A stretch of 42,637 nucleotides of DNA from Betaproteobacteria bacterium. GTDB taxonomy: Bacteria; Pseudomonadota; Gammaproteobacteria; Burkholderiales; Usitatibacteraceae. The position numbers and the translations under genes are program-made. Shown in pieces: positions 16,082-32,981 of the stretch. The first letter of the stretch is position 1. Each line of letters starts with the position of its first letter. The notes below the pieces were generated by a model that was given only the letters and a program-made list of their open reading frames with translations, did no database searches and had not been told where the DNA came from. The stretch is taken from assembly GCA_019449455.1 (NCBI GenBank), contig JAGRPO010000242.1:1-42637 (forward strand), read 5' to 3'.

Positions 16082-16139
16082 GGCGATGCTCCGGCATGAC
16101 GGCGATCCGCCATTCTGCCCGAGCCCGCCGGCGCGGGAA

Positions 16140-16868
16140 TCACACCTTCACGGAGAAGGGCGTGAAATCCGTGTCGCGGTCGTAGTAATCCTCGTGCTCC
16201 GCGCGCTTGAGCCAGCCCACGACGGCATAGGTGACGGGCGTGAACGCGACCTCCACGCCGACCTTCGTCACGAACTGCGCGAGCATCACCACCGGCAGCT
16301 TGTCGTCGGGGATGATCCCGGTGCCGTAGAAGGCGAGCGGGTAGAAGAGGAGCGAGTCGACGCCCTCGCCCAGGATCGTCGATCCGACGGTGCGCGACCA
16401 CAGCCACCTTCCCCCGGTCGCGATCTTCATCTTCGCGAGCGTGAACGAGTTCGCGAACTCGCCGCAGAAGTAGGCGAACATCGAGGCGGCCGCGATGCGC
16501 CAGGCCTGGCCGAACGCGACCTCGTAGGCGGCCTGGTTCTTCCAGAACGGCGCCGGCGGCAGCGCCACCACCACCCACGCCATGAAGGAGGCGAAGGCGA
16601 GCCCGGCGAACCCCGCCCAGATCACGCGGCGCGAGCGCGCGTAGCCGTAGACCTCGGTGAGGATGTCGCCGAAGACGTACGAGATCGGGAAGAAGAGGAC
16701 CCCGGCGCCGAACGTGAGCGGCCCGAGGACCGGGAGGTCCACCTGCGCGATCTTGGCCGGTCCGATCAGGTTCGAGCAGATGAGGACGGTCACGAAGGCC
16801 GCCATCACGAACTCGTAGTGCCTGTACTGGCCGTGCGGCGGCGGCAAGGGCGCGGGAGTCCTGTTCAT
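16140..16868 (-). CDS. yhhQ: Queuosine precursor transporter (YhhQ/QPTR, DUF165)
   Basis: 242-residue inner-membrane protein with about six hydrophobic segments. The family takes up preQ0/preQ1 for synthesis of the modified tRNA base queuosine. Family signatures visible are ICSNLIGPAKIA, FFPISYVFGDILTEVYGYARSRR and FCGEFANSFTLAKMKIATGGRW, followed by RTVGSTILGEGVDSLLFYPLAF. The ATG at 16868 overlaps the stop of the upstream methyltransferase gene by four bases. No queuosine biosynthesis gene is in the window, so uptake versus other roles rests on family knowledge. Confidence 0.93.
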   Translation of the reverse strand: MNRTPAPLPPPHGQYRHYEFVMAAFVTVLICSNLIGPAKIAQVDLPVLGPLTFGAGVLFFPISYVFGDILTEVYGYARSRRVIWAGFAGLAFASFMAWVVVALPPAPFWKNQAAYEVAFGQAWRIAAASMFAYFCGEFANSFTLAKMKIATGGRWLWSRTVGSTILGEGVDSLLFYPLAFYGTGIIPDDKLPVVMLAQFVTKVGVEVAFTPVTYAVVGWLKRAEHEDYYDRDTDFTPFSVKV

Positions 16869-17665
16869 CGACTTCCCCTGCCCGGCTCGAGGCCCCGCTG
16901 CCTGACCGCCTCGAAGAGCGCGATCGATCCCGCCACGCCCGCGTTGAGGCTCTCGGCGCGCCCGGGCATGGGGATGCGAGCGCGGACCTTCGCGGCCTTC
17001 TCCAGTTCCGGGGAGAGTCCCGCGCCTTCGTTGCCCACGAGGAAGGCCACCGGCCCGCGCAGGTCCGTCTCGAAGACGCTCGCACCCGCCTTTCCGCTGA
17101 GCGCCACCGTCGCGCCCTCGAAGCCCGACGCGAACGCCGCGAGGTCCGCCCCCTCGAGGATGTTCAGGGCGAAGTGCGCGCCCTGCCCCGCGCGCAGCAC
17201 CTTGGGCGACCAGGCGAAGGCGCACGTGGGCGAAAGCAGGACGTGCTCGACGCCGGCGGCCGCGGCGCTGCGCAGCAGCGTGCCGACATTGCCGGGGTCC
17301 TGCAGGTCCTCGAGCGCGAGGCAGAAGCGCGCCCCCGCCGGCACGGCGCGCCCGGCGGGCGTGGGCACCACGGCGAGGATCCCGGCCGGCGATTCCACGC
17401 CGCTCACCGCGCCGAAGAGCGCGTCGGCGAGTTCCACGATCACGGCGGCGCCGGCGCGCGCGCGGGCCACGATCGCGGGCTGCGCCTCGGCGGCCGCCCG
17501 CGTGACGAAGAGCTGCGTGACGGTCCGCCCCGTGTCGAGGCAGGCCTCGACGAGGTGCGCGCCCTCGATGACGGTGAGGCCGCGCTTCCTGCGCTCGGCC
17601 GCCGACGAGGCCAGCTTCGCGAGCGACTTGTAGGCGGGGTTGTCCCGCGAGGCGACGGTCTTCAT
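16865..17665 (-). CDS. SpoU/TrmH-family RNA 2'-O-methyltransferase
   Basis: 266-residue SPOUT-class enzyme that methylates ribose 2'-OH in rRNA or tRNA with S-adenosylmethionine. An N-terminal substrate-binding domain (about 1-100) precedes the knotted catalytic domain with motif 1 NVGTLLRSAAAAG (Asn126, Arg132), motif 2 GNEGAG (211-216) and motif 3 IPMPGRAESLNAGVA (Ser239-Asn241). It is RlmB-like, but the target base cannot be told. It sits two bases after rnhB and overlaps yhhQ by four bases, making a small RNA-processing tail to the lipid A operon. Confidence 0.93.
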   Translation of the reverse strand: MKTVASRDNPAYKSLAKLASSAAERRKRGLTVIEGAHLVEACLDTGRTVTQLFVTRAAAEAQPAIVARARAGAAVIVELADALFGAVSGVESPAGILAVVPTPAGRAVPAGARFCLALEDLQDPGNVGTLLRSAAAAGVEHVLLSPTCAFAWSPKVLRAGQGAHFALNILEGADLAAFASGFEGATVALSGKAGASVFETDLRGPVAFLVGNEGAGLSPELEKAAKVRARIPMPGRAESLNAGVAGSIALFEAVRQRGLEPGRGSR

Positions 17666-17667
17666 CG

Positions 17668-18279
17668 TCAGGACGGAAGGCCCCGCCGTGCCAGGGCTGC
17701 GCGCACCGGCCCGAACGTGCGGCGGTGGATCTCGCAAGGGCCCAGCGCCAGGAGCGCGGCCAGGTGCTCGGCCGTCGGGTACCCCTTGTGGCGCGCGAAG
17801 CCGTAGCCCGGGTAGCGCGCGTCGAGCGCGACCATCTCCTCGTCGCGCGCGGTCTTCGCGAGGATGGAGGCGGCCGAGATCGCCGCGATGAGCCGGTCGC
17901 CCTTCACGACCGCCCGCGACGGCCATCGCGTGCGCGGCACGTGCAACCCGTCCACGACGACCTCGTCGGGCTCGACCCCGAGCGCCTCGACGGCCCGCGC
18001 CATCGCGGCGAGGCTCGCGCGCAGGATGTTCATCCCGTCGATCTCCTCCACCGTCGCCGAGGCCACGGCCCACGCGAGCGCGTCGCGCCGGATGGCCGTG
18101 GCGAGCGCCTCGCGGCGCGCGGGCAGGAGGAGCTTGGAGTCGGCGAGCCCGGCCACGGGCCGCGCCGGGTCGAGGATCACCGCGGCGGCGAACACGGCGC
18201 CGGCGAGCGGCCCGCGCCCGGCCTCATCGACCCCGCACAGCCGCGAGTTCGGGTTCGCCGTGGAGCGGTTGCGGGGCAT
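17668..18279 (-). CDS. rnhB: Ribonuclease HII
   Basis: Cleaves RNA in RNA-DNA hybrids, including single ribonucleotides left by DNA polymerase. It has 203 residues. The acidic active site is visible as [13 protein letters not shown] (Asp18, Glu19) and VVVDGLH (Asp110), with [21 protein letters not shown] following. The ATG at 18279 lies 56 bases inside the end of lpxB. No later start codon precedes the conserved CGVDEAG block, so the long overlap is real. Position downstream of lpxB is common in proteobacteria. Confidence 0.95.
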
Positions 18280-19429
18280 GGGTTGCTCCGTTGGAGAGCC
18301 AGGGCGCCAGCGCCTGCGCCACGCGCTCGTCGTTGCCGCACCGAAGCTCGGCGTGGATCGCGTCGTAGCGCGCCTGGAGCCGCTCGCGCGCGACCTTGTG
18401 GTCGAGCCAGTTCGCGACCGCCTGCTCGAGGTTTTCCGGCGTGGCGTGCTCCTGCAGCAGCTCGGGCACGATGAACTCGCCGGCGAGGATGTTGGGCAGC
18501 CCGACGTAGGGCAGCAGCGCCTTGCGCATCATGAGGCGGTAGGTGAGCGCGGGGACCTTGTACGTGATCACCATGGGGCAGCGCGCCAGCGCGCCCTCGA
18601 GCGTGGCGGTGCCGCTCGCGATGAGCGCGCAGTCGGCCGCCTGCATGGCGAGGCGAGCATGGCCGAAGAGGATCGTGAGGTCGAGCGACTGGGCCTCGTG
18701 CGCGTACAGGCGCGCCTCGAAGAACTCGCGCGTCTCGCGGGTGGCGAGCGGCACGAAGAAGCGCACCCCGGGGCGGCGCGCCGCGAGCCGCCTCGCCGTC
18801 TCGATGAAGAGGTCGGCGTGCGACTCGAGCTCGCCGCGGCGGCTGCCCGGCAGCAGGGCCACCGCCGTGGACGATTCCCGCAGGCGAAGCTGCGCCCGCG
18901 CCTCCTGCCGCCCCGACGCGAGCGGGATCTCGTCGGCGAGCGGATGACCCACGTAGGTGGCGGCGATGCCGGCCTTCTCGTAGATCGCGGCCTCGAAGGG
19001 AAATATCGTGAGCACGCGGTCCACCGCCCGCCCGATGGACGGCAGCCGACCCGGGCGCCAGGCCCAGATGGACGGGCTCACGTAGTGCACGGTGGGGATG
19101 CCGGCGCGCTTGAGCTTCGCCTCGAGCCCGAGGTTGAAGTCGGGGGCATCGACGCCGATGAACAGGTCGGGCCGGTCCGCGGCGAGCCGCGAGGCGAGGT
19201 TCGAGCGGATGCGCAGCAGCTCCGGAAGGCTCCTCGCCGCCTCGACGTAGCCGCGCACCGAGAGCTTTTCCATCGGCACGAGCGTGCGCGCCCCCGCGGC
19301 GATCATCCGCGGGCCGGCGATGCCGTAGAACTCGGTGCCGGGGAACCGGCTGGTCGCCGCGCGCACCAGCGCCGCTCCCAGCATGTCGCCCGAGGCCTCC
19401 CCGGCCACGATGGCCACGCGCCGGGGCAT
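18224..19429 (-). CDS. lpxB: Lipid-A-disaccharide synthase
   Basis: Membrane-associated GT19 glycosyltransferase that joins UDP-2,3-diacylglucosamine and lipid X to form the lipid A disaccharide. It has 401 residues, slightly longer than usual because of a variable C-terminal tail that overlaps rnhB. Signatures include [68 protein letters not shown] and [11 protein letters not shown]. The ATG shares one base with the lpxA stop (TGATG), so the two are translationally coupled. Confidence 0.97.
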
Positions 19430-20205
19430 CAGCGCACGATGCCCCGCGTCGACGCGGCGAGGAACTCCACGATCGCCCCCACCTCGGGCGCCGACTGCGC
19501 CTGCCGCTCGAGCTCGGATCTGGCCTCGGCGAGGGTGAGTCCGGACTTGTAGAGCGTCTTGTAGGCGCGCTTGAGCGCCGCGAGCGCCTCGGGCGTGAAG
19601 CCGCGGCGCTTCAGGCCCTCGCTGTTGATGCCGTGCGGCGCGCAGGGGTGGCCGGCGACCGTGACGTACGGAGGGACGTCCTGGAGGACGACCGACGAGA
19701 CCCCCGCCATCACGTGCGCGCCGATCCTCACGAACTGGTGCACGCCGGTGAAGCCGCCGAGCACGGCGTGGTCGCCGATCCAGACGTGGCCCGCGAGCGT
19801 GGCGTTGTTGGCGAAGACCGTGTGGCTGCCCACGCGGCAGTCGTGCGCGATGTGGCAGCTCGCCATGATCCAGTTGTCGCTGCCGACCGTCGTGACGCCC
19901 GCGTCCTGCACCGTGCCGCGGTGCAGCGAGCAGTACTCGCGGATGGTGTTGCGGTCGCCGATCGCGAGGCGCGTGGGCTCGCCGCGGTACTTCTTGTCCT
20001 GGTTGGCTTCCCCGATGGAGCAGAAGTGGAAGATGCGGTTGTCCCGGCCGATGGCCGTGTGGCCCGTCACCACGCAGTGCGCGCCGATCGTCGTGCCCTC
20101 GCCCACCTCGACGTCGCCGTCGATCACGCTGTAGGGCCCGACCCGCACGCCGGCGGCGAGCCGCGCGCGCGGGTCGACGATGGCCGTGGGGTGGATCCCG
20201 GTCAT
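19429..20205 (-). CDS. lpxA: UDP-N-acetylglucosamine acyltransferase
   Basis: First step of lipid A synthesis: transfer of a 3-hydroxyacyl chain from ACP to UDP-GlcNAc. It has 258 residues with left-handed beta-helix hexapeptide repeats over about 1-190 ([20 protein letters not shown] and onward). The catalytic His lies in SCHIAHDC (His121, matching E. coli His125), and NATLAGH and [14 protein letters not shown] are conserved. A helical C-terminal domain ([20 protein letters not shown]) closes it. Start ATG at 20205, 16 bases after fabZ. Confidence 0.97.
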
Positions 20206-20221
20206 TCGCGCCCCCGCCCGG

Positions 20222-20665
20222 CTAGACGGGCCTGAGCGTGCACAGGAGCTCGGCCTCGGAGGCGACCTTCCCGTCGACCTTCGCCACGGCCCTGAACTTG
20301 CCCATCCCGCGGGTGAGCCGCAGCTGCTCCACCTCGAAGACGAGCTGGTCGCCGGGGCGCACGGGGCGCTTGAACCGCGCGCCGTCGATGCCGACGAAAT
20401 AGTAGACGCTCTTGCCGTCGTTCTTCTGTCCCGTGGACAGCAGGCCCAGCATCGCCGCCGCCTGTGCCATCGCCTCGATGATGAGCACGCCCGGCATGAC
20501 CGCGTAGTGCGGGAAGTGCCCCTGGAAGAACGGCTCGTTGGCGGTCACGTTCTTCAGCGCCACGATGCGCGCGTCCTTCTCCCACTCGACGATCCGGTCG
20601 AGCAGCAGGAAGGGGTAGCGGTGCGGCAGGTACTCCTTGATCTGCTCAATGTTCATCGATTTCAT
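20222..20665 (-). CDS. fabZ: 3-hydroxyacyl-ACP dehydratase
   Basis: Dehydrates 3-hydroxyacyl-ACP in fatty acid elongation and competes with LpxA and LpxD for the same substrate. It is a 147-residue hotdog fold with catalytic His50 in FFQGHFP and Glu64 in [22 protein letters not shown] near the N-terminus is typical. The ATG at 20665 was chosen over the in-frame ATG at 20656 because GGAGGAAG lies just before it. The start is 20 bases inside lpxD. Confidence 0.97.
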
Positions 20666-21731
20666 GGTCTTCCTCCGAATGGGCCTTGCCGCGGGCGAGG
20701 CGCGCGATCTCGTCGAGCCGGCGCAGGTGCGCGGCGTTCCTGAGCCAGTCCGCGTGCGGCATCATGGGCAGGCCCGAGGTGTAGACGCCGGCCTGCGTGA
20801 TCGACTTGGTGATGAAGGTCATCCCCGAGATCGTGACGCCGTCGGCGATCGTGAGGTGGCCGACGATGCCCACGGCCCCCCCGATCACGCAGTGGCGGCC
20901 GATGACGGTGCTGCCGGAGATCCCGGTGCAGCCCGCGATCACCGTGTGCGCGCCGATGCGGCAGTTGTGCGCGACCTGGACCAGGTTGTCGATCTTCACG
21001 CCCTCGCCGACGACGGTGTCGCCGAGCGCGCCGCGGTCGATCGTCGTGTTCGCGCCGACCTCCACGTCGTCGCCGAGCACCGCGCGGCCCACCTGCGGGA
21101 TCTTCAGCCACTTCCCCTGGTCGGGCGCCATGCCGAACCCGTCCGCGCCGATGACGGCCCCCGAGTGCAGGATGCAGCGCGCCCCCACCTCGCAGCCGTG
21201 GTAGACGGTGACCCGGGGATGGAGGATCGTGTCGTCGCCGATCGACGAGCCCTCGCCCAGCACCGATCCCGCGCCGATGCGCGCGCGCTCGCCGACGCGG
21301 GCGCCGGCGGCGATCACCGCGAAGGGCCCGATCTCGGCGGAGGCCGCGACCTGCGCGGCCGGGTCGACGGACGCCGTCGGGTGCGAGCCCGCCACCGCCG
21401 GCCGGGGCGGGTGGAAGAGCGCGAGGGTGCGCGCGAAATACGCGTAGGGGTTGTCCGAGACGATGCGCGCGATGGCGGTCGCGTCGCGGTCGCGCGGCCC
21501 CAGGATCACCGCGCCCGCGCGCGTCGCGGCGAGCTTCGACCGGTAGCGCGGGTTGGCGAGGAAGGTGATCTCGCCGGGGCCGGCCTCGTCGATCGTGGCC
21601 ACGCCGGTCACAGAGACCGAGCCGTCGCCCGCGATCTCCCCGCCGAGCCGCCTGACGATCTCCTGCAGGGTGAGGGCGGCGGGCGCCGCGGCGGCGGCGG
21701 GCTGCCTCAGGGTCGGGCTCGGGGGTGGCAC
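20646..21731 (-). CDS. lpxD: UDP-3-O-acylglucosamine N-acyltransferase
   Basis: Third step of lipid A synthesis: N-acylation of UDP-3-O-acylglucosamine. It has 361 residues. An N-terminal uridine-binding domain (about 20-115, [27 protein letters not shown]) precedes hexapeptide repeats forming a left-handed helix. The catalytic His is in VQVAHN (His255), and GADGFG is conserved. The start is a GTG at 21731, 16 bases after skp, with a weak ribosome-binding site and an Ala/Pro-rich leader of about 18 residues; the true N-terminus could be slightly shorter. It overlaps fabZ by 20 bases. Confidence 0.96.
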
Positions 21732-21747
21732 GGGGAGGCTCGCACGG

Positions 21748-22242
21748 CTACTTGTCCGCCAGCGCCTTGATGACCTTGTCGGTGATGTCGATGCGGGAGC
21801 TGGCGAACACGGCCTCCTGCACGACCAGGTCGAACTTCTCGGCCTCGGCGATCTGGTTGATGGCGCGCGTGGCGCGCTCCTGGACCTGCGCCAGCTCCTC
21901 GTTCCGGCGCAGGTTGAGGTCCTCGCGGATCTCGCGCTGCAGGCGCTGGAAATTGCGGCTCACGTCGGCCAGCTGCCGCTCCTTCTCCCGGCGCGCGGCC
22001 TCCGGCAGCAGCACGCTGTCCTTCTCGAGCTCGACCTGCAGGTCGCGCCCCTGCTTCTCGAGCTTGGCCAGCTCGACGTTCCTCGCCGCGAACTCGCGCT
22101 CGAGCTTCTGCTGCGCGCGCTTGGCCGGCGCGGCCTCGCGGAAGACGCGCTCCGTGTTCACGAAACCGATCTTCACGTCCGCGGCGACGCCGGCCGTCGC
22201 GATAGCGCCGAGCGCAGCAGCCAATCCTTTCCGCCAGTCCAT
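21748..22242 (-). CDS. skp: Periplasmic chaperone Skp/OmpH
   Basis: Trimeric chaperone that holds unfolded outer-membrane proteins on the way to the Bam complex. It has 164 residues. A signal peptide (1-21, ending GVAA) leads to [15 protein letters not shown], the family's start, then a long charged coiled-coil (about 45-125, rich in Glu, Arg and Lys) and a C-terminal part ending [12 protein letters not shown]. It is placed between bamA (18 bases) and lpxD (16 bases), as in most Gram-negative bacteria. Confidence 0.94.
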
Positions 22243-22260
22243 GCGAGTCGCTCCGATGAC

Positions 22261-24558
22261 CTAGAAGATCCTGCCGAGCTGGAACTGGAAGCGTTCCTGC
22301 TTGTCGCCGTCCTGCTTCTTGAAGGGCGCGGCGAACGAGAACTTGAGCGGACCGACCGGCGAGTCCCAGCTCACCGCCACGCCCGTGGAGGCGCGCAAGT
22401 CGGAGAAGCTCACCTTTTCGCCGGCGCCCCAGACGCTGCCGGCGTCGACGAAGGCCGACAGGCGCACGCCCTTGTCCTTGATGCCGGGCATCGGGAAGAG
22501 GAACTCGAGGTTGGCCACGGCGCGGCGGTTGCCGCCGAGCACGTCGCCGTTCAGGTCGCGCGGCCCCAGCGAGGCGGACTCGAAGCCGCGCACCGAGCCC
22601 ACGCCGCCGGCGTAGAAGTTCTTGAAGAAGGCGAGCGCCTTGCCGCCGTAGCCGTCCGCGTAGCCGAACTCCCCGTTCACCAGGAGGGTGAGCCAGCCCA
22701 GCCGGTCGGGCGTCCAGAGGAACTGCTGCTGGATCGAGGCCCGGTAGTACTTCAGGTCGCCGGGCGGCACGCCCACCTCCAGCGCGAGGTCGGTGAGCCA
22801 GCCGCGGGTCGGATAGGTCAGGCTGTCGCGCGTGTCGCGCGCGTAGCCGATGTTGGCGCGGACGGTGTTGGTCCTCTCGCCGAAGGTGTTCACGAAGTCG
22901 ATGTAGCGGGGCGGGGCCGTGAGCTCGTCGAGCTTGAGCTTCGTCGCCTCCGCCGTCAGCCCGAGGCGCACGGTGTCGTATTCCGTGACCGGCACGGCGA
23001 AGCTCACCCCGGCGCCGGTCGAGGTCGTCTGGTACGAGGAGACCACCAGAGAGGAGGTGTCGACGTCGCGGCGGAAGACGTCGATGCCCGCGGCGATGCC
23101 GTCGATGGTCCAGTAGGGATCCACGAAGGAGAGCGAGTAGACCCTGTTGATCGAGCCGTTGTTCACCTGGAAGGCGAGCTGGTTGCCCGAGCCGAAGATG
23201 TTGGCCTGGGAGACGGACGCCGACACCGTGAGCTTGTCGGCCTGGGAGTAGCCCACGCCGAAGTTGAGGCTGCCGGTGTTCTTCTCCGTGACCGTGACCA
23301 CCACGTCGACCTGGTCGGCGGTGCCGGCCACGGGCGGGGTCTCGATGTTCACCTCGGAGAAGTAGCCCAGGCGCTGCAGGCGCTCCTTGGAGCGGGCGAT
23401 CTTCTCGAGGGAGTACCACGAGCTCTCGAGCTGGCGCAGCTCGCGCCGGACCACCGCGTCCTGGGTGCGCGAGTTGCCCACGACGTTCACGCGCCGCACG
23501 TAGACGCGCCGCCCGGGATCGACGAAGAAGGTGAAGCTCGCCACGCGCTTTTCCCGGTCGAGGTCGGGCACCGGGTTCACGTTGGCGAACGAGTAGCCGT
23601 CGTTGCCGAGCCGGTCGGTGATGCGCTTGACGCTCTCGATGATCCGCTCGCGGGAGAAGGTGTCGCCGGCGCGCAGGCTGGTGAGCTCGCGCAACTCGCG
23701 TTCCGGGACGATGAGGTCGCCGCCGAACTTGAGCTCGCCCAGGCGGTAGACCGGGCCCTCGGTGACCGCGATGGAGATGAAGATCTTCTCGCGGTCGGGG
23801 GTGATCGAGACCTGCGTGGAGTCGATGTTGAACTCGAGGTAGCCGCGGTTCAGGTAGAACGAGCGCAGCGTCTCCAGGTCGGCCGTGAGCTTCTGCTTGG
23901 AGTACTGGTCGTCCTTGGTGATCCAGGTGAGCCATCCCGGCGTCGTGAGCTGCATCTGGCGCAGCAGCTGCCCCTCGGAGAAGTCCTTCGCGCCGATGAT
24001 GTTGATGTCGGCGATGCGCGTGATCTCGCCTTCCTCGATGTCGAAGCGCAGCGACACGCGGTTCCTCTCGAGGGGCGTGACCGTGATCTTCACCGTCGAG
24101 GAGTAGAAGCCGCGCGAGGTGTACTGGCGCTTCAGCTCCTTCTCCGCGCGGTCGAGGAGCGACTTGTCGTAGATCTTGGATTCCGAGATGCCCGCCTGCT
24201 TCAGGCCGTCCTTGAGGTTGTCCTTCGTGAACTCCTTGGCGCCCTCGATCTCGATGGCCGCGATGGCCGGGCGCTCCTGCACGAAGACGACGAGCACGTC
24301 GCCGTCGGCCTCCAGCCGCACGTCGGAATAGAAGCCGGTCGCGTAGAGCGCCTTCACCGATTGCGCGGCCTTGTCGTCGTCGATGCGCTCGCCCACCTTC
24401 ACGGGCAGGTAGGAGAAGACGGTGCCGGCCTCGGTTCGCTGGACGCCCTCCACGCGGATGTCCTTTACCACGAAGGGCTGGATGGCCAGCGCCGGCACCG
24501 CGGCGGCGAGCGCGCAGGCGACGGCGAGGCGCGAGGCGTGGAAGCGGGGATTTTTCAA
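22261..24558 (-). CDS. bamA: Outer-membrane protein assembly factor BamA
   Basis: Essential core of the Bam complex that inserts beta-barrel proteins into the outer membrane. It has 765 residues. Signal peptide 1-25 (ending PALA), five POTRA domains (about 26-425) and a 16-strand barrel with the VRGF motif of strand-lid loop 6 at 656-659, ending RFQFQLGRIF. The start is a TTG at 24558, four bases after the rseP stop; no ATG or GTG gives an intact signal peptide, so a rare start codon and coupling to rseP are likely. It is the assembly factor for the two barrel proteins encoded at 11565 and 13865. Confidence 0.96.
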   Translation of the reverse strand: MKNPRFHASRLAVACALAAAVPALAIQPFVVKDIRVEGVQRTEAGTVFSYLPVKVGERIDDDKAAQSVKALYATGFYSDVRLEADGDVLVVFVQERPAIAAIEIEGAKEFTKDNLKDGLKQAGISESKIYDKSLLDRAEKELKRQYTSRGFYSSTVKITVTPLERNRVSLRFDIEEGEITRIADINIIGAKDFSEGQLLRQMQLTTPGWLTWITKDDQYSKQKLTADLETLRSFYLNRGYLEFNIDSTQVSITPDREKIFISIAVTEGPVYRLGELKFGGDLIVPERELRELTSLRAGDTFSRERIIESVKRITDRLGNDGYSFANVNPVPDLDREKRVASFTFFVDPGRRVYVRRVNVVGNSRTQDAVVRRELRQLESSWYSLEKIARSKERLQRLGYFSEVNIETPPVAGTADQVDVVVTVTEKNTGSLNFGVGYSQADKLTVSASVSQANIFGSGNQLAFQVNNGSINRVYSLSFVDPYWTIDGIAAGIDVFRRDVDTSSLVVSSYQTTSTGAGVSFAVPVTEYDTVRLGLTAEATKLKLDELTAPPRYIDFVNTFGERTNTVRANIGYARDTRDSLTYPTRGWLTDLALEVGVPPGDLKYYRASIQQQFLWTPDRLGWLTLLVNGEFGYADGYGGKALAFFKNFYAGGVGSVRGFESASLGPRDLNGDVLGGNRRAVANLEFLFPMPGIKDKGVRLSAFVDAGSVWGAGEKVSFSDLRASTGVAVSWDSPVGPLKFSFAAPFKKQDGDKQERFQFQLGRIF

Positions 24559-24562
24559 GGGG

Positions 24563-25933
24563 TCAGCCCGTGAGGAGCCGGTTGATGTCGTTGTAGAAGG
24601 CGAAGAAGGTGAGCCCGGCGAGGATCGCCAGCCCGATGCGCTGGCCGATTTCCATCGCGCGTTCGGACACGGGAGAGCCCTTCACGATCTCGGCCGAATA
24701 GTACACCAGGTGCCCCCCATCGAGCAGAGGGATGGGCAGCAGGTTCAGCACGCCCAGGCTCACGCTCACGAGCGCGAGGAACCCGGCGAAGGACACCCAG
24801 CCCATTTGCGCCGACTGCCCCGCGTAGTCCGCGATCGTGATGGGGCCGGAGAGGTTCTTCCACGACACCTGGCCCAGCAGCATCTTGCCCAGCATCCTCA
24901 GGCTGAACACCGAGAGGTCCCACACGCGGTGCGCCGCCTTCGGAATCGCGGCGAGGGGGTCGTGGCGGACCGTGGTCGTCATGCGTTCCCATTCGCGGCG
25001 CACCTCGGGCCCGGGCTCCACCTTGAGCAGCCCGATTCGCGCCTCGCCCTCTCCGGTCGCCTCGGGCACGGCCGAAATCGCGAGGCGGTCGGCGCCGCGC
25101 TCCACCTCGAGGACGAGCACCCGCCCGGCGGAAGCGCGCACGCGCGCCGTGAACTGCCCCCAGGTCGCCACCGGGGCACCGCCGATGGCCACGACGCGGT
25201 CCCCGTCGCGAAGTCCCGCACGCTCGCCCGCGCCACCGGGCAGGACGCGGCCGAGCACCGCCGGAACGCGCGGCGTGAAGGCCTTCAAGCCCAGCTTCTG
25301 GAGGAAATCGCGGTCGAGGTCGTCCTTGGTGAGCGACGACAGGTCGAGCGAGCGCACGGTGGCGCCCCCGCCCGCGCTTTCCAGTTCGATCGCCACCTCG
25401 CCGCCGCGCACCGCTTCCTTGAGCAGGAGCCAGCGCACGTCGGTCCAGGTGGCGGTGGGCTCGCCGCCCACGGCGCGAATGGTGTCGCCGTTCGCGAGCC
25501 CCGCGGCCGCGGCCGCGCTCGCCTGCGGCGGATCGCCCACCACGGGCTTCACGCCCGGCAGGCCCGTGACGTAGAGCCCCCAGTAGAGGAAGAACGCCGC
25601 GATGAAGTTGGCCGCGGGCCCGGCCAGGACGACCGCGATGCGCTTGCCCACCGGCTGCAGGTCGAAGGCGCGCGACCGCTCGGACGGGGCCACTTCGCCT
25701 TCCCGCGAGTCGAGCATCTTCACGAACCCCCCGAGCGGAAAGGCCGCGATCACCCACTCCGTGCGGTCGGGGCCGAGGCGTCGGATCCACAGGGGGCGGC
25801 CGAAGCCCACCGAGAAGCGCAGGATCTTCACGCCCGCGAGCCGCGCGACGGCGAAGTGGCCCCATTCGTGGATCACCACGAGCACGCCCACGGTGACGAG
25901 GAAGGATGCGATGGTGACGAGGGCGCCTGGCAT
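24563..25933 (-). CDS. rseP: Site-2 intramembrane zinc protease RseP
   Basis: Cuts the anti-sigma factor RseA within the membrane in the sigma-E envelope stress response. It has 456 residues. The zinc motif is IHEWGH (His22, Glu23, His26) in TM1, and the third ligand Asp405 is in LLDGGH near the C-terminus. Two periplasmic PDZ domains lie between (about 125-300; GLRDGDRVVAIGG in the second). Start ATG at 25933, 20 bases after dxr. Its placement next to bamA and skp links stress sensing with barrel assembly. Confidence 0.96.
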   Translation of the reverse strand: MPGALVTIASFLVTVGVLVVIHEWGHFAVARLAGVKILRFSVGFGRPLWIRRLGPDRTEWVIAAFPLGGFVKMLDSREGEVAPSERSRAFDLQPVGKRIAVVLAGPAANFIAAFFLYWGLYVTGLPGVKPVVGDPPQASAAAAAGLANGDTIRAVGGEPTATWTDVRWLLLKEAVRGGEVAIELESAGGGATVRSLDLSSLTKDDLDRDFLQKLGLKAFTPRVPAVLGRVLPGGAGERAGLRDGDRVVAIGGAPVATWGQFTARVRASAGRVLVLEVERGADRLAISAVPEATGEGEARIGLLKVEPGPEVRREWERMTTTVRHDPLAAIPKAAHRVWDLSVFSLRMLGKMLLGQVSWKNLSGPITIADYAGQSAQMGWVSFAGFLALVSVSLGVLNLLPIPLLDGGHLVYYSAEIVKGSPVSERAMEIGQRIGLAILAGLTFFAFYNDINRLLTG

Positions 25934-25953
25934 GGTTCCGATTTTCCCCGATT

Positions 25954-27156
25954 TCAGACGGCGCGGCGCCCGAGGCGCGAAATCTCGCGCCGGGCGGCCT
26001 CGCGGGCCTCGCGGTCCGCGCGCCACGCCGTATCGAGCGAGTCGAGCGGTTCGACCGCGCTTGCCGACAGGACGTTCTCGATGACGGCCGCGATGGCGTT
26101 GAACGCGAGGCCGCCGGCGAGGAAGCTCTCCACGGCCACCTCGTTGGCCGCGTTGAGGATGGCCGGGGCCGTCCCTCCCCGGTCCAGGGCGGAGAACGCC
26201 AGGCGCACGCAGGGGAAGCGCCCGTCGTCCACGCGCCCGAACTCGAGCCGGCCGAGCGCAGCGAAGTCCACCGGGGCGACTCCCGCCTCGATGCGCTCGG
26301 GCCAGGCGAGCGCGCAGGCGATCGGCGTGCGCATGTCCGGGGCGCCCAGCTGGGCGATGACCGAGCCGTCGTGGTACTCGACCATGGAATGGATGACGCT
26401 CTGCGGGTGGATCACGACCTCGATCGCCTCGCGCGGCGCGCCGAAGAGCCAGAACGCCTCGATCACCTCGAGGCCCTTGTTCATCATCGTGGCCGAGTCC
26501 ACCGAGATCTTGCGGCCCATCACCCAGTTGGGATGCGCGCAGGCCTCGTCGGGCGTGACCTCGGCGAGCCGTTCGACCGGGGTCGAGCGGAAGGGGCCGC
26601 CCGAGGCCGTGAGGAGGATCCGGCGCACGCCGGCCCGGGCGGCCTCGCCCGCGCGCCCGCAGACGAAGCCGCGCGGCAGCGACTGGAAGACCGCCGAATG
26701 CTCGCTGTCGATGGGCAGCAGCACCCCGCCGCCCTCGGCCAGCGCGGCGAGGAAGAGCGAGCCGGAGACCACGAGCGCCTCCTTGTTGGCGAGCAGCACG
26801 ATCTTGCCCGCGCGCGCCGCGGCGAGCGTGCCCGGCAGGCCCGCCGCGCCCACCACCGCGGCCATCACCGCATCGGCCTCGGGAAGCGCGGCGACCCGCT
26901 CGAGCGAGCCCGGCCCGGCGAGCACCTCCGTGGCGACTCCCCGGGCCCTGAGCGTGGCCCGCAGGCGCTCCGCGGCCGCCTCGTCCGCCATCGCCGCCCA
27001 GCGCGGCTCGAAGCGCTCGCACTGCGCCGCGAGCTTCTCGTGGCTCGTGCAGGCCGCGAGCGCCAGGACCTCGAAGCGCTCCGGATGGCGCGCCACGACG
27101 TCGAGCGTGCTCTCGCCGATCGATCCCGTGGAGCCGAGAATGGTTAGCCGCTTCAT
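25954..27156 (-). CDS. dxr: 1-deoxy-D-xylulose-5-phosphate reductoisomerase
   Basis: Committed step of the MEP isoprenoid pathway, making 2-C-methyl-D-erythritol 4-phosphate with NADPH. It has 400 residues. NADPH-binding loop GSTGSIG (8-14), metal ligands Asp150 and Glu152 in PIDSEHSA, plus [30 protein letters not shown] and a C-terminal helical domain. It overlaps cdsA by four bases (ATGA). Its product feeds UppS, encoded two genes upstream. Confidence 0.97.
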
Positions 27157-27986
27157 GCGAGCGAGAGCAGCAGCGCCGCGGCGGGCAGGGTCGGGGTGAG
27201 CGCGTCGATGCGGTCGAGGACGCCGCCGTGGCCCGGCAGGAGCGCGCTCGAGTCCTTGCGTCCGGCGCCCCGCTTCATCCACGACTCGAACAGGTCTCCC
27301 AGCACGGACAGCGCCGCGAGCGCCAGCATCGCGAGGAGGGCGGGCGCGCCCCCGCCGGCGCCGAAGATCGGCGTGAGCGGCCCCGGGCCCGCATGCGCGT
27401 GCAGGTCGAGCGCGATGCCGTAGGCGAGGACGCCCAGGAGCGCGCCGATCACGCCCTCCCAGGTCTTGCCGGGGCTGATGGCGGGCGCGAGCTTGTGCCG
27501 CCCGAAGCGCCGGCCGGCGAAGTACGCGGCGATGTCGGCCACCCACACGAGCGCGGCGCAGGCGAGCAGGATCCACGGGCTCGCCTCGCGGATCACCACG
27601 AGCGCCGCCCACAGGGGCCAGACCACGAGCCAGCCCGCCACGCCCGACGCCCACGGCTCGGGGCGAAGGCGCAGCAGCAGCCACGCCGGCACCGCGAAGA
27701 CCCAGAAATAGGCCGAGGCGATGAACGAGGCCTGCGCCACGTTGGAGAAGACGAGCTGCGGTCCCCGCAGGCAGGCGAGCGCGAGGGCGAGCGCGATGGC
27801 CGCGGAAAGGACGAGGTAGGCGCGGCGGGCGCCCGGGCCGAAACCGCAAAGGCGCGACCATTCCCAGCAGGAGGCGAGCGCGATCGCGCCCGCGAAGGCA
27901 ACCCACGCCGCCGGCCCCGCGAGGAAATTCATCCCGAGAACGAGGGGGAGCAGGACGACCGCGGTGAGGACTCGCGTCTTGAGCAT
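27153..27986 (-). CDS. cdsA: Phosphatidate cytidylyltransferase (CDP-diacylglycerol synthase)
   Basis: Inner-membrane enzyme forming CDP-diacylglycerol from phosphatidate and CTP for all phospholipids. It has 277 residues with about eight membrane segments. The family signature near the C-terminus reads [14 protein letters not shown], then [13 protein letters not shown], including the conserved Lys, Asp and Gly-His-Gly-Gly. The start was set at ATG 27986 ([14 protein letters not shown]), which begins the first membrane segment; the longer frame upstream is antisense-like Arg/Ser-rich sequence. It follows uppS by 19 bases. Confidence 0.95.
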
Positions 27987-28005
27987 GCGCCTGCCCGGGA
28001 GGCCT

Positions 28006-28773
28006 CTAGCCGGCCTTGGGCTGGGGCAGGCTGGAGGCCAGCTGCTCGCTCGTGCGCCCGAAGCGCCGCTCGCGCGAACGGTACGAGGCGATGGCCTCGT
28101 CGAGCGCCTCGGCGCCGAAGTCGGGCCACAGGACCGGCGTGAAGTGGAACTCGGCGTAGGCGAGCTGCCAGAGGAGGAAGTTGGACACGCGCTCCTCGCC
28201 GCCGGTGCGGATGAAGAGGTCCGGCTCCGGGGCATAGTGCATCGAGAGGTAGCGCGAGAGGAGCTCCTCGGTGACCTCCTCGCCGGGATGCTCGGCGCGG
28301 CACCGGTTGGCCGCCTGCAGGATGTCCCAGCGGCCGCCGTAATTGGCCGCCACGGTGAGCGTGAGGCGGGCGTTGCCGGCCGTGAGCGCCTCGGCGCGGC
28401 GGATGTGGTCGACGATGACGGGGTCGAACGCCGACAGGTCGCCGATCACCTTGAACCGGATGCCGTTGCCGTGCAGCTTCCCGACCTCCTGCTCGAGGGC
28501 CTTGAGGAAGAGCTGCATGAGGACGCTCACCTCCTCCTTCGGGCGGCGCCAGTTCTCGCTCGAGAACGCGAAGAGCGTGAGGCATTCCACGCCGCGCGCG
28601 ATGCAGGCCTTCACGACCTCGCGCACGGCCTCGACGCCGCGGCGGTGTCCCGCCACGCGGGGCAGGAAGCGCGCCTTCGCCCACCGGCCGTTGCCGTCCA
28701 TGACGATGGCGACGTGGCGCGGGACGTCCCCGGCCCGGGGTATGGCGAGCGTGCTGCTCTCGAATTCGGCCAT
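28006..28773 (-). CDS. uppS: Undecaprenyl diphosphate synthase
   Basis: cis-Prenyltransferase that makes the C55 lipid carrier for peptidoglycan and LPS. It has 255 residues. Signature [14 protein letters not shown] (catalytic Asp26) near the N-terminus, then [23 protein letters not shown], the NYGGRWDI loop and [19 protein letters not shown]. The first 18 residues are a variable extension. Position 23 bases after frr and 19 before cdsA. Confidence 0.97.
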
Positions 28774-28796
28774 GGCTCGGGCGGCGGCGGTCGGGA

Positions 28797-29363
28797 TCAG
28801 ACCGCCATCAGTTCCTTTTCCTTCTCCCCGACCATGCGGTCGATGTCGGCGACCGCCTTGTCGGTGAGCTTCTGCACCTCGTCCTGGACGCGCTTCTCCT
28901 CGTCCTCGGAGACGTCGTGCTTCTTGAGGGTCTCCTTGAGCTGGGTGTTGGCGTCGCGGCGCACGTTCCTCACGGCGACCTTCGCCTCCTCGCCCTCGTG
29001 CCTGACGATCTTGGTCAGCTCGCGGCGGCGCTCCTCGGTGAGGGCCGGCATCGGCACCCGGATCATGTCGCCGGAGGTGGCGGGGTTCACGCCCAGGTCG
29101 GAGTCGCGGATCGCGCGCTCGACGGTCTGCACCATCTTCTTCTCGTAGGGCTGCACGCCGATCGTGCGCGCGTCGGCGAGCGTCACGTTGGCCACCTGGT
29201 TGATGGGCGTGGGCGTGCCGTAGTAGTCCACGCGCAGGTGGTCGAGGAGGCCGACGTGGGCGCGGCCGGTGCGCACCTTGGCGAGGTTGTGCTTGAGGGT
29301 GTCGATGGACTTCGCCATCTTCTCGGCGGCCAGCTTCTTGATGTCGTCCATGTTCTGAGCCAT
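28797..29363 (-). CDS. frr: Ribosome recycling factor
   Basis: Splits the post-termination ribosome with EF-G. It has 188 residues, close to the usual 185. Signatures include [64 protein letters not shown] and [11 protein letters not shown]. The ATG at 29363 begins [10 protein letters not shown]; a second in-frame ATG four codons on is less likely because AGGA lies before the first. Gap of 14 bases after pyrH. Confidence 0.97.
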
Positions 29364-29377
29364 GCGTCCTCCGGGTT

Positions 29378-30094
29378 TCAGCTGTGGACCAGGGTGCCTT
29401 CGGCCTCCCCCATCACGACGCGCCGCAGGGCGCCGTCCTTGAAGATGGAGAAGACGTTGATGGGAAGCCGCTGGTCGCGGCACAGGGCCAGCGCCGTCGC
29501 GTCCATCACCTTGAGGTTCTTCACGAACGCCTCGTCGAAGGTGAGCTTCTCGTAGCGGGTCGCCTTGGGGTCCTTCATGGGGTCGGCGGTGTAGACGCCG
29601 TCCACCTTCGTCGCCTTCAGCACGATCTGCGCCTCGACCTCGCGCCCGCGAAGCGCGGCCGCGGTGTCGGTGGTGAAGAAGGGGTTGCCCGTGCCCGCGG
29701 CGAAGATGACGATCTTGCCTTCCTCGAGGTAGCGGATGGCCTTGCCGCGGATGTAGGGCTCGCAGACGGGCTCGATGTTGAGCGCCGACTGCACGCGCGC
29801 GACGAGCCCGGCGCGGTTCATCGCGTCCTGCAGCGCGAGCGCGTTGATCACGGTCGCGAGCATGCCCATGTAGTCGGCGGTGGCGCGGTCCATCCCTGCC
29901 GCCCCCAGCGAGACGCCGCGGAAGATGTTGCCCCCGCCGATCACCACGCCCACCTGCACGCCGAGGTCGGCGACCTCCTTCACCTGGCCGACGATGCGCT
30001 CGACCACGGCCCGGTTGATGCCGAAGGCGTCGTCGCCCATGAGGGCCTCGCCGGAGAGCTTGAGGAGGATGCGCGAGTAGGCGGGTGCGGTCAT
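29378..30094 (-). CDS. pyrH: Uridylate (UMP) kinase
   Basis: Phosphorylates UMP to UDP; hexameric amino-acid-kinase fold, inhibited by UTP and activated by GTP in relatives. It has 238 residues starting [74 protein letters not shown] and [13 protein letters not shown] are all present. Start ATG at 30094, 38 bases after tsf. It supplies UDP for the UDP-sugars used by the lpx genes downstream and by galU at 38935. Confidence 0.97.
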
Positions 30095-30132
30095 CGGGGC
30101 TCGATTCGGTAACGGGGCCTGGGACGGGCGGC

Positions 30133-31011
30133 TCAGGCCGCCGTCTTCGTCATCGCCGCGACCTCCGCGGCGAAATCGGACTGCTTCTTCTCGATGCCCT
30201 CGCCCACGACGAGGAACCGGAAGGACAACACCTTCGAGCTGGCCGCGGCGAGCATCTTCTCGACCGTGAGCTTGTCGTCCTTCACGAACGGCTGGCCCAG
30301 CAGCGTGATCTCGCCGAGGTACTTGTTGATGCCGCCCTCGACCATCTTCGCCGCGATCTCGGGCGGCTTGCCGGATTCCCTCGCGCGCGCCTCGATGATG
30401 GCGCGCTCGCCGGCGAGCGCGTCTGCCGAAACCTGGTCCTTCGAGAGGTACCTGGGCTTCGCGAAGGCGACGTGCATCGCGACGTCCTTGCCCACCGCGT
30501 CCTGGCCCTCGAATTCGACGATCACGCCGATCTTCACGCCGTGCACGTACTGCGCGAGGCGGGCGGCCGACTGCACGCGCTCGAAGCGGCGCACGGTGAT
30601 GTTCTCGCCGATCTTCTGCACCAGCGCCTGGCGCGCCTCCTCGACCGTCTTGTCGCCGATCGCGAGCGCCGTGAGGGCGGCCACGTCGGCCGGGTTCGCG
30701 GTCGCGACGAGCTCGGCCAGCGCCTTCGAGAAGGCGGCGAAGTCCGGGTTCCTGGCGACGAAGTCCGTCTCGCAGTTCACCTCGACCATCGCGCCCAGCT
30801 TCGAATCGGGCGAAAGGTAGGTGCCGATGGCGCCTTCCGAGGCCACGCGCGAGGCCGCCTTGGAGGCCTTGGCGCCGCTCTTGATGCGCAGCAGCTCCTC
30901 GGCCTTCTTCATGTCGCCGCCCGACTCCTCGAGGGCCCTCTTGCACTCCATCATGCCGAGCCCGGTGAGCTCGCGCAGGTCCTTCACCATGCTCGCGGTG
31001 ATTTCAGCCAT
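30133..31011 (-). CDS. tsf: Elongation factor Ts
   Basis: Nucleotide exchange factor for EF-Tu. 292 residues from the chosen start. The N-terminal UBA-like domain ([28 protein letters not shown]) is followed by the core with [13 protein letters not shown] and the coiled-coil/C-terminal module. Two ATGs exist, at 31017 and 31011. I chose 31011 because GGAG lies eight bases before it but only two before the other. The gene follows rpsB after 79 bases that contain a terminator hairpin, so its expression is likely lowered relative to rpsB. Confidence 0.97.
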
Positions 31012-31041
31012 TTTCATTGCTCCAGTCGCATTACGGATGCG

Positions 31042-31063
31042 AAAAGGGGGCTTCGCGCCCCCT
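31042..31063 (-). terminator. Intrinsic terminator/attenuator between rpsB and tsf
   Basis: On the minus strand a seven-base stem AGGGGGC and GCCCCCT (plus 31057-31063 and 31045-31051) with a five-base loop GCGAA is followed by TTTT. It lies 27 bases after the rpsB stop and 30 before the tsf start. Partial termination here would give more S2 mRNA than EF-Ts and downstream mRNA. An attenuating hairpin between these genes is known in E. coli. Confidence 0.8.
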
Positions 31064-31090
31064 GTCCGCGTGTACGTTGCGCGAAAGGCC

Positions 31091-31852
31091 TCAGCCCTTC
31101 GCTTCCTCTGCGTCCTCGACCTCGACGAACTCCTCCGTGGAGGACGCCGCCGGGGCCACCATCTCGGTGATCACCTGGCTCCTGCCCTCGAGGATCGCGT
31201 CGGCCACGCCGCGGGCATAGAGCCGGATGGCGCGGGTCGAGTCGTCGTTGCCCGGGATCACGTAGTCGATGCCGTCGAGCGAGTTGTTGGTGTCGACCAC
31301 GCCCACGATGGGGATGCCGAGCTTCTTCGCCTCGGTGACCGCGATCTTGTGGTAGCCCACGTCGATCACGAACAGGGCGTCGGGAATGCCGCCCATGTCC
31401 TTGATGCCGCCCAGGGAGCGCTCGAGCTTCTCCTTCTCGCGGGCGAAGTTGAGGCCTTCCTTCTTGGTCAGCTTCTCGACGGACCCGTCGAGGATCATCT
31501 GGTCCATTTCCTTCACGCGCTTGATCGACTGCTTCACCGTCTTGAAGTTGGTGAGCATGCCGCCCAGCCAGCGGTAGTCGACGTAGGGCGCGCCGGCGCG
31601 CTGCGCCTCTTCCTTGAGGATGTCGCGGGCCTGGCGCTTCGTGCCGACGAAGAGGATCTGCCCCTTGTTGGACGTGAGCTGGCGCACGAACTTGAGCGCT
31701 TCCTGGTACATCGGAAGCGACTTCTCGAGGTTGATGATGTGGATCTTGTTGCGGGCACCGAAGATGAACGGCGACATCTTCGGGTTCCAGTAGCGCGTCT
31801 GGTGGCCGAAGTGAACGCCGGCCTCCAGCATCTGGCGCATGGTGACGGACAT
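31091..31852 (-). CDS. rpsB: 30S ribosomal protein S2
   Basis: Structural protein of the small subunit. It has 253 residues. Signatures are [66 protein letters not shown] and PDALFVIDV. The acidic C-terminal tail ([14 protein letters not shown]) is common in betaproteobacteria. AGGAG lies seven bases before the ATG at 31852. It is the first gene of the long envelope/translation operon and has a roughly 120-base structured leader. Confidence 0.98.
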
Positions 31853-31972
31853 GGTGTTGCTCCTGTGGTTAAGGTTGGCCTCCCCCCGCGAACCCGGTTG
31901 CCCGGGACCTTAGCCTTGCTGCGGGGGTGCGGATTTGCCCTGGGGTGAAATCGACGACTCCCTCCCGGACAG
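31853..31972 (-). promoter_or_regulatory. Structured rpsB 5' leader
   Basis: About 120 bases between the predicted start of transcription and the rpsB ATG. As RNA from the minus strand, an outer helix UAAGGU/ACCUUA (plus 31907-31912 and 31870-31875) encloses a directly stacked hairpin CCCGG-GCAA-CCGGG (plus 31893-31906) with a GNRA tetraloop, and then a G-rich unpaired strand. The structure ends about 10 bases before the AGGAG. S2 is known to repress its own mRNA in other bacteria; use of this fold for that is inferred. Confidence 0.5.
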
Positions 31973-31978
31973 ACTGCG

Positions 31979-32008
31979 ATTATAGCCGGAAAAGGGCCAA
32001 GTTTTCAA
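31979..32008 (-). promoter_or_regulatory. Sigma-70 promoter for the rpsB operon
   Basis: Minus-strand TTGAAA (plus 32003-32008) and a perfect TATAAT (plus 31979-31984) separated by 18 bases. It is the best housekeeping promoter in the window and stands in a small AT-rich patch. Predicted transcription start is near 31972, about 120 bases before rpsB. Confidence 0.8.
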
Positions 32009-32055
32009 ATAGATCGGGTCTGCACGCCCCCGCGCGGCGTCCTCCTGCGGCCGGG

Positions 32056-32081
32056 GCGGGGGAGGCGGCCGCCTCCCCCGC
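32056..32081. repeat. Perfect 26-base intergenic palindrome
   Basis: Arms GCGGGGGAGGC (32056-32066) and GCCTCCCCCGC (32071-32081) flank GGCC, giving exact dyad symmetry. It lies between the divergent promoters of rpsB and map, upstream of both. There is no T tract on either side, so it is not a normal terminator. It may be a protein-binding site or a cruciform-forming element. I see no second copy in the window. Confidence 0.8.
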
Positions 32082-32119
32082 TTCGGCCGCCCGTTCACGG
32101 GCCCTCTCCCGCCTGCCGC

Positions 32120-32125
32120 TATAAT
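32120..32125 (+). promoter_or_regulatory. Candidate -10 element of the map promoter
   Basis: A perfect TATAAT lies 28 bases before the map start codon. The best -35-like hexamer (TTCACG, 32094-32099) is 20 bases away, too far for a standard promoter, so only the -10 is supported. Transcription from here would leave a leader of about 20 bases. Confidence 0.55.
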
Positions 32126-32153
32126 CGCGCCTTCCCCATTTGCCGCCGATCCC

Positions 32154-32981
32154 GTGTCAATCGAAATCAAGACCGCGCAGGACATCGAGAAGATGCGCAT
32201 CGCCGGGCGCCTGGCCGCCGAGGTGCTGGACTTCATCACCCCGCACGTGAAGGCCGGCGTCACGACGGGGCGCCTGGACAAGCTCTGCCACGACTACATG
32301 GTCGACGTGCAGGGGACGATCCCGGCGCCGCTCGACTACGCGCCGCCCGGCCACCGCCCGTACCCCAAGTCGATCTGCACCTCCGTGAACCACCAGGTCA
32401 GCCACGGCGTGCCCGGCGACAAGGTGCTCAAGCACGGCGACATCGTGAACATCGACATCACGGTGATCAAGGACGGCTACCACGGCGACACGAGCCGCAT
32501 GTTCACGGCGGGCGAGCCCTCCATCCAGGCCCGGCGCCTGTGCGACGTGACCTACGAGTGCCTGTGGAAGGGCATCGCGCAGGTGCGCCCCGGCGCGAAC
32601 CTGGGCGACATCGGCCACGCCGTCCAGCGCCACGCCGAGTCGCACGGCTTCAGCGTCGTGCGCGAGTTCTGCGGCCACGGCATCGGCCGGCGCTTCCACG
32701 AGGAGCCGCAGGTGCTCCACTACGGCCGCCCCGGCCAGGGCATCGCGCTGCAGGCCGGCATGATCTTCACCATCGAGCCCATGATCAACGCCGGCCGGCG
32801 CGACATCCGGTCCCTGGCCGACGGCTGGACGATCGTCACCGCCGACCATTCCCTTTCCGCGCAGTGGGAGCACACCATCCTGGTGACGCCGGAGGGCTTC
32901 GAGGTCCTCACGCTCTCCGCCGGAGCGCCCGCCGTCCCGGCGTTCGTGGAGAGCGATCGCACCGCGTCCGTGGCGCCCTGA
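32154..32981 (+). CDS. map: Methionine aminopeptidase, type I
   Basis: Removes the N-terminal Met from new proteins after deformylation. It has 275 residues. All five metal ligands are visible: Asp101 (VNIDITV), Asp112 (GDTSRMF), His175 (GHGIGRRFHEEP), Glu208 (FTIEPM) and Glu239 (QWEHTILV). The GTG at 32154 is the start: the family begins SIEIKTAQDIEKMRIAGRLAA. The tail after residue 255 is variable. Divergent from rpsB, as in many proteobacteria, and 37 bases before glnD. Confidence 0.97.
   Translation: MSIEIKTAQDIEKMRIAGRLAAEVLDFITPHVKAGVTTGRLDKLCHDYMVDVQGTIPAPLDYAPPGHRPYPKSICTSVNHQVSHGVPGDKVLKHGDIVNIDITVIKDGYHGDTSRMFTAGEPSIQARRLCDVTYECLWKGIAQVRPGANLGDIGHAVQRHAESHGFSVVREFCGHGIGRRFHEEPQVLHYGRPGQGIALQAGMIFTIEPMINAGRRDIRSLADGWTIVTADHSLSAQWEHTILVTPEGFEVLTLSAGAPAVPAFVESDRTASVAP

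Follow-up and report, generated by a model that had tools for sequence, protein, structure and literature searches.

The 42,637-nucleotide stretch of DNA analyzed here (the window) carries on its minus strand rpsB, which encodes ribosomal protein S2, and the sequence directly ahead of this gene raises the question of whether it specifies a leader RNA through which S2 could control its own synthesis and, if so, in which fold. Most of the 80 loci gathered as S2 protein relatives were betaproteobacterial by name, with a best identity of 78%, and on this basis the window is taken to be betaproteobacterial. The original prediction placed in a leader of about 120 nucleotides a CCCGG-GCAA-CCGGG hairpin flanked by UAAGGU and ACCUUA and followed by a Shine-Dalgarno sequence, and each of these elements is present on the minus strand at its predicted place (Table 1). 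The length also agrees with the promoter, as the near-consensus sigma-70-type promoter at 32008-31979 leads to an expected transcript start near position 31972 and hence a leader of about 120 nucleotides (31972 to 31853). A loose -10-like box ending 19-73 nucleotides 5' of the motif was identified in 40 of the 54 leaders with a GGAGGC-type linker, a raw count taken without a chance control. The divergent plus-strand gene upstream (window 32154-32981) is, from a reading of its open reading frame, presumably methionine aminopeptidase (map), and the divergent neighbor of E. coli rpsB is likewise map.

Table 1. Features of the rpsB leader and its surroundings in the window; A1, A3, and A4 are the leader alignments described in the text.
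Feature	Position	Strand	Basis
rpsB, ribosomal protein S2	31091..31852	-	open reading frame and S2 protein relatives
Shine-Dalgarno AGGAG	31860..31864	-	sequence
Pseudoknot 3' strand ACCUUA (right arm of the originally predicted outer helix)	31870..31875	-	covariation
Conserved linker GAGGCCA, P1 to pseudoknot	31876..31882	-	alignments A1 and A3
P1 3' strand GCGGGGG	31883..31889	-	minimum-energy fold, energy comparison, covariation
P3 hairpin CCCGG-GCAA-CCGGG	31893..31906	-	minimum-energy fold; stem counts versus shuffles
J2-3, pseudoknot 5' strand UAAGGU (left arm of the originally predicted outer helix)	31907..31912	-	covariation
P1 5' strand CCCCCGC	31921..31927	-	covariation in A1 and A4
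Conserved unpaired segment AAUCCGCA, 5' of P1	31928..31935	-	nearly invariant A1 columns
5'-terminal hairpin P0, accessory, outside the published motif	31936..31971	-	leader fold
Sigma-70-type promoter TTGAAA-18-TATAAT for rpsB	31979..32008	-	11/12 consensus positions

Leader topology and its support from covariation

The topology of the leader is a helix P1 enclosing the hairpin P3, with the UAAGGU/ACCUUA pairing forming a pseudoknot that crosses P1. The nesting of the hairpin inside a closing helix, as originally predicted, had overlooked that GCGGGGG (31889-31883) pairs with the upstream CCCCCGC (31927-31921). Once this P1 is formed, its loop contains UAAGGU but not ACCUUA, and the two can then pair only as a pseudoknot. 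In the window, P1 has seven base pairs, P3 five, and the pseudoknot six; P1 and P3 both occur in the minimum-energy fold of the leader, which also contains a possible P2 of three base pairs (AGC/GCU). The folding program is unable to predict pseudoknots, and its fold pairs two of the UAAGGU bases elsewhere and joins CCUU and GAGG in a 4-bp hairpin that by inspection is impossible in relatives carrying ACCCU.

Every pair named in the nested fold, with UAAGGU/ACCUUA closing the hairpin and a 17-nucleotide bulge on one side, is possible, and the outer ones covary; the fold is nevertheless very improbable, as it excludes a P1 that covaries at six of seven positions in alignment A1 and, at -13.5 kcal/mol compared to -24.3 kcal/mol for P1 plus P3, is less stable by 10.8 kcal/mol. 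The importance attached to the GNRA loop found no support either, with the window and its six genus-mates with a leader (L001-L007) reading GCAA, UCAC, UCGC, GAAA, GAAA, GCAA, and UCGU (GNRA in just 4/7), while outside the genus the sequence and length of the hairpin vary, as P3 does across the leaders at large. A stem of at least five Watson-Crick pairs starting no more than four nucleotides from GGU was found in 51/101 leaders compared to 270/2020 shuffles.

The stability of the window leader was no greater than chance in two folding tests (z of -0.53 and +0.37), and the case for its structure therefore rests on comparison across relatives, that is, on covariation. The leader set comprised 107 rpsB loci (L001-L107), of which 103 were retained after removal of L026 (which lacks a 5' end), L093 (wrong start), and both L039 and L105 (little upstream sequence). 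A sequence-free search of these 103 for the P1 plus pseudoknot architecture found it in all of them with helices of 5 + 5 bp (292/309 shuffled sequences), in 98 at 6 + 5 bp (623/1030), in 83 at 7 + 5 bp (76/309), in 62 at 6 + 6 bp (76/309), and in 44 at 7 + 6 bp (28/309); the architecture without sequence constraints is thus common in shuffles and informative at the stricter settings only.

Alignment A1 consisted of 37 hand-picked leaders (that of E. coli and 36 from the set of 103), including 16 from the family of the window and others that were mostly betaproteobacterial, with L061, L104, and L106 titled as gammaproteobacteria or Chromatiales; two or three rows that are partly misaligned by eye (L081, L102, and L108) were retained. 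Over P1 and the pseudoknot, 94.0% of 481 cells in A1 were standard pairs and 88 cells were double-changed from the commonest pair, compared to at most 53.5% paired and at most 14 double-changed cells in controls slid by one to three columns. Nine pairs of the complete A1 structure showed a double change, an unremarkable count given a shuffled mean of 7.5 and 77 of 500 shuffles that reached it. P1 alone showed changes on both sides at 6/7 pairs with 95.4% of its cells paired. A model containing P1 only (R1) was run on 100 of the 107 loci (without L026, L039, L093, and L104-L107), and the 55 matched at E<=0.5 gave alignment A4, in which P1 showed both-sided changes at 7/7 pairs and 97.9% of cells paired, the alignment having been fitted to P1. 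The pseudoknot, absent from that model, was 93.0% paired in A4, and its fourth pair was A-U in 27 and G-C in 27 of the 54 rows with letters, with zero mismatch. Taken alone, the A4 pseudoknot did not rise above its controls in some measures, with six further pair types (shuffled mean of 6.0, reached in 431/500), both-sided changes at three pairs (reached in 44/500), and a covariation score of 0.256, compared to 0.238 when slid by +1; two of the five count-and-score measures for the pseudoknot alone were no better than shuffles. Two further alignments had more limited use. P1 3' strands of two groups stood one column apart in A2, which was left unused, and A3 (30 of the 103 leaders), in which P1 is seemingly one column off in part of the rows, served only to build a second model, R2.

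An anchor-based parse covered 101 of the 103 leaders (L096 and L099 were unparsed) and found the fourth pseudoknot pair intact in 101/101 (52 A-U, 46 G-C, and three G-U; best of 1000 shuffles 85), where the search pattern for the 5' strand admits only A or G at that position. The fifth pair was intact in 93/101 (best shuffle 88), and the sixth was poorly kept (46/101; best shuffle 37). Leaders with an AGAC-type linker were separated from the GGAGGC type by a simple letter pattern, and among the 47 of the AGAC type alone the fifth pair (43/47; best shuffle 43) and the sixth (8/47; best shuffle 10) did not exceed shuffles, leaving only the fourth to do so. A first version of this parse (86/101, 82/101, and 40/101 at the fourth to sixth pairs) had mis-picked later copies of AACC or GGU and was replaced. 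Parsimony on a tree of the S2 proteins required four state changes at the fourth pair and 14 at the fifth; since the rows are related, many of the double changes descend from few events. The UAAGGU/ACCUUA pairing, for which the original prediction had proposed a covariation analysis, does covary as a pseudoknot, and P1 covaries too.

Relationship to described S2 leaders and distribution

Comparison with known S2 leader models gave a divided answer, the layout being that of the rpsB motif (Meyer 2009) while the Rfam t44 model (RF00127) failed to match the window leader even at E<=10. The rpsB motif is described, in the published text consulted, as standing ahead of rpsB with a long P1, variable P2 and P3, and a J2-3 segment that pairs with a 3' extension after P1 (PMC2704228); the pseudoknot is given as five pairs in most groups, P2 as short or absent, and the listing of the motif as including "a few" Betaproteobacteria (PMC2704228). 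Likened to this text, the window agrees in its place upstream of rpsB, its P1, its variable P3, and its pseudoknot, and it differs in a P2 of at most 3 bp and a P3 that directly abuts the pseudoknot strand. The E. coli rpsB leader, which the t44 model matches, has by inspection the same position and the same layout of P1, P3, and pseudoknot (CACGUAUC/GAUACGUG and GGGGU/ACCCC), and shares with the window the GGAGGC linker before AACC, whereas at the fourth pair of the pseudoknot the window has A-U where E. coli has G-C. Architecture, position ahead of rpsB, and covariation thus bear out the idea of a betaproteobacterial version of the S2 leader. The feature is very probably the betaproteobacterial counterpart of the known S2 (rpsB) leader, as its predicted structure and homology indicate, and would by analogy most likely mediate S2 feedback through the pseudoknot near the Shine-Dalgarno sequence. 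As its fold matches a type already described, the feature exists but most of it was known before.

The Rfam scan of the window gave no t44 match at the gathering score of 44 bits, and the 12 Rfam matches at E<=10 in positions 31400-32300 did not include t44. The t44 cut-off was reached in 0/150 genomes of the window's order, its own genome included, and the leader is accordingly not filed as RF00127. The t44 model stops at UAAC, leaves its final ten positions unpaired, and therefore lacks the pseudoknot. At E<=10, t44 gave matches in 47 of the 150 genomes, and the 33 matches in the order with E<=0.0065 all overlapped R1 matches, indicating that both models see the same element. The leader is a relative of the known S2 leader that has diverged too far for the Rfam model to match it.

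R1 matched 93/150 genomes of the order and 91/185 genomes of the class at E<=0.01, and R2, derived from the Burkholderiaceae-like A3 leaders, matched 10 of the 57 order genomes that R1 missed and none on the R1 list. The S2 leader is therefore common in the order (103/150 genomes with the two models), and as 150/150 genomes are missed when the Rfam model is applied at its cut-off, such rpsB leader annotations are probably incomplete. Two members of the window's family (G009 and G018) were missed by R1 even though their leaders (L020 and L014) carry UUAAGGU/ACCUUAA, so that a genome missed by R1 is no proof that the leader is absent. Match places were inspected for the 30 best-scoring of the 95 matches that R1 gave in the order, the best 10 of the class search (window included), and all 10 R2 matches; the 54 inspected loci (35 + 19) represent 49 distinct places, including that of the window, as L109-L113 from the t44 search repeat five R1 loci. 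At all 49, which had the top scores in their respective searches, rpsB lay just downstream on the same strand, although at L137 it could be read for only 21 residues before the contig end. Genome G152 had a second, weak R1 match apart from the first (C21:133664-133719, E of 0.0035), and G138 had two R1 matches on two contigs (C221 and C126).

RNAs from this region have been noted in individual species. A short transcript linked to rpsB and derived from its 5' UTR, BprB, is described in Bordetella pertussis with autoregulation proposed (PMC3110155), and by that description both BprB and the window leader are rpsB 5' UTR RNAs of betaproteobacteria; the Bordetella leader in the present set (L078) has an AGAC-type linker compared to GAGGCCA in the window. 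In Burkholderia pseudomallei, an sRNA candidate has been connected with the S2 gene by authors who cite t44 (PMC5719362), and a study of Alcanivorax discusses T44 RNA as an sRNA whose start site is also that of rpsB (PMC9788540). The consulted portion of a paper on 20 further ribosomal leaders names rpsB only within the Bacteroidia L13 operon (PMC7247131). A wide betaproteobacterial distribution of the S2 leader was not met in the literature searched and is not claimed here as unpublished. The analysis corrects the topology and ties a leader on which Rfam is silent to a known S2 feedback system.

Predicted mode of control

Translational repression by S2 is the likeliest function of the leader, with S2 binding and the direction and step of control carried over from E. 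coli. In that species, as summarized in the sections consulted of a 2024 review, excess S2 helped by S1 represses its own translation via the leader, the level of tsf drops as well, the ribosome binding site lies outside the operator, and the mechanistic details of S2 autoregulation are called unclear (PMC10931766). By analogy, S2 in excess over 30S subunits would bind the folded leader (jointly with S1 in E. coli), and bound S2 may lock or stabilize the pseudoknot next to the Shine-Dalgarno sequence; the locked pseudoknot would keep the 30S subunit off that sequence so that S2 output falls, and the downstream tsf would be lowered through coupling. Steric exclusion of the 30S subunit is the weakest part of this scheme and uncertain, given that the E. 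coli ribosome binding site is described as not being part of the operator (PMC10931766). A control of reversed sign was also considered, in which the 3' strand of the pseudoknot forms a hairpin with the sequence up to the start codon; such a hairpin is possible in 10/96 leaders and was rejected as a general mechanism.

The same structure could instead work chiefly at the level of transcription, through attenuation or early termination that yields a short leader RNA. The RNAs of B. pertussis, for which inhibited full-length transcription is proposed in the consulted text (PMC3110155), and of B. pseudomallei, the S2-linked sRNA candidate (PMC5719362), speak for this mode. It is unlikely, as a search of the minus strand over 31000-32400 gave no terminator-like site, and short RNAs may also arise from decay or lost coupling after translational repression. 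Less probable still is a constitutive 5' UTR element enhancing mRNA stability or translation independently of S2; the genus does have the 5'-terminal hairpin, and S2 binding is here proposed by analogy, but both the architecture and the gene are the same as in the E. coli leader that S2 represses. That the element is an independent, t44-like sRNA acting in trans is hardly credible: Rfam types t44 as an sRNA, and the Alcanivorax discussion of T44 takes the same line (PMC9788540), but the 49/49 distinct inspected match places stand directly before rpsB, and the fifth pseudoknot base is 1-8 bases from a loose Shine-Dalgarno pattern in 94 of the 96 leaders with that pattern (101 parsed), as expected of a cis element.

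Lineage-specific forms and downstream genes

The leaders differ between lineages in several parts. The accessory hairpin P0 stands at the very 5' end of the window leader and ends at AAAU. Among the genus leaders it was found in 7/7 with folds of 48 nucleotides and in 6/7 with shorter segments; under a fold-based rule it occurred in 27/54 GGAGGC-type leaders compared to 569/2160 shuffles (26%) and in 13/47 AGAC-type leaders compared to 478/1880 shuffles, and under a strict rule in 23/101 leaders compared to 197/2020 shuffles. P0 is by these counts at most a lineage-limited feature.

In the Burkholderiaceae-like A3 loci (within L033-L103), an AGAC-type linker (UUUUAGACC, CUUAAGACC) replaces GGAGGC just before AACC, and in Comamonadaceae-like leaders a bulged A was seen in P1 by inspection. 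At the foot of P1 in the window (31879-31883, minus strand), GGAGG looks like a Shine-Dalgarno sequence and precedes the true one; as GGAGG is missing from the AGAC-type A3 leaders, a general decoy role is unlikely. The betaproteobacterial S2 leaders may, as a tentative reading that falls somewhat short of an even chance, constitute a subclass of their own, marked by the switch between A-U and G-C at the fourth pair, a pseudoknot ending near the Shine-Dalgarno sequence, GAGGC and AGAC linkers swapped between lineages, and in part a start-proximal hairpin, with S2 or S2 plus S1 reading a contact surface unlike that of E. coli. The divergent forms are natural variants for asking what S2 recognizes.

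Gene content downstream of rpsB was obtained from a Pfam scan of 20 minus-strand open reading frames (7705 to 31014), with gene names read from the Pfam families. Matches fitting genes of the usual cluster were identified for 14 of them, corresponding to tsf, pyrH, frr, uppS, cdsA, dxr, bamA, skp, lpxD, fabZ, lpxA, lpxB, rnhB, and a SpoU-type methylase; an open reading frame lacking a Pfam match at E<=1e-8 occupies what we take to be the usual place of rseP and would bring the cluster to 15 genes, compared to the 17 downstream genes whose output the original prediction placed under the leader. Of the five other frames scanned, four lacked a match and one gave a weak acetyltransferase match. 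Neither a consensus promoter nor a minus-strand terminator was found over 14000-31900, which allows for a long transcript; S2 repression of genes past rpsB-tsf is at most a possibility. In E. coli, the intergenic region between rpsB and tsf (L108 1286-1395) gave an Rfam match to CssrA, placing an RNA family between the two genes there.
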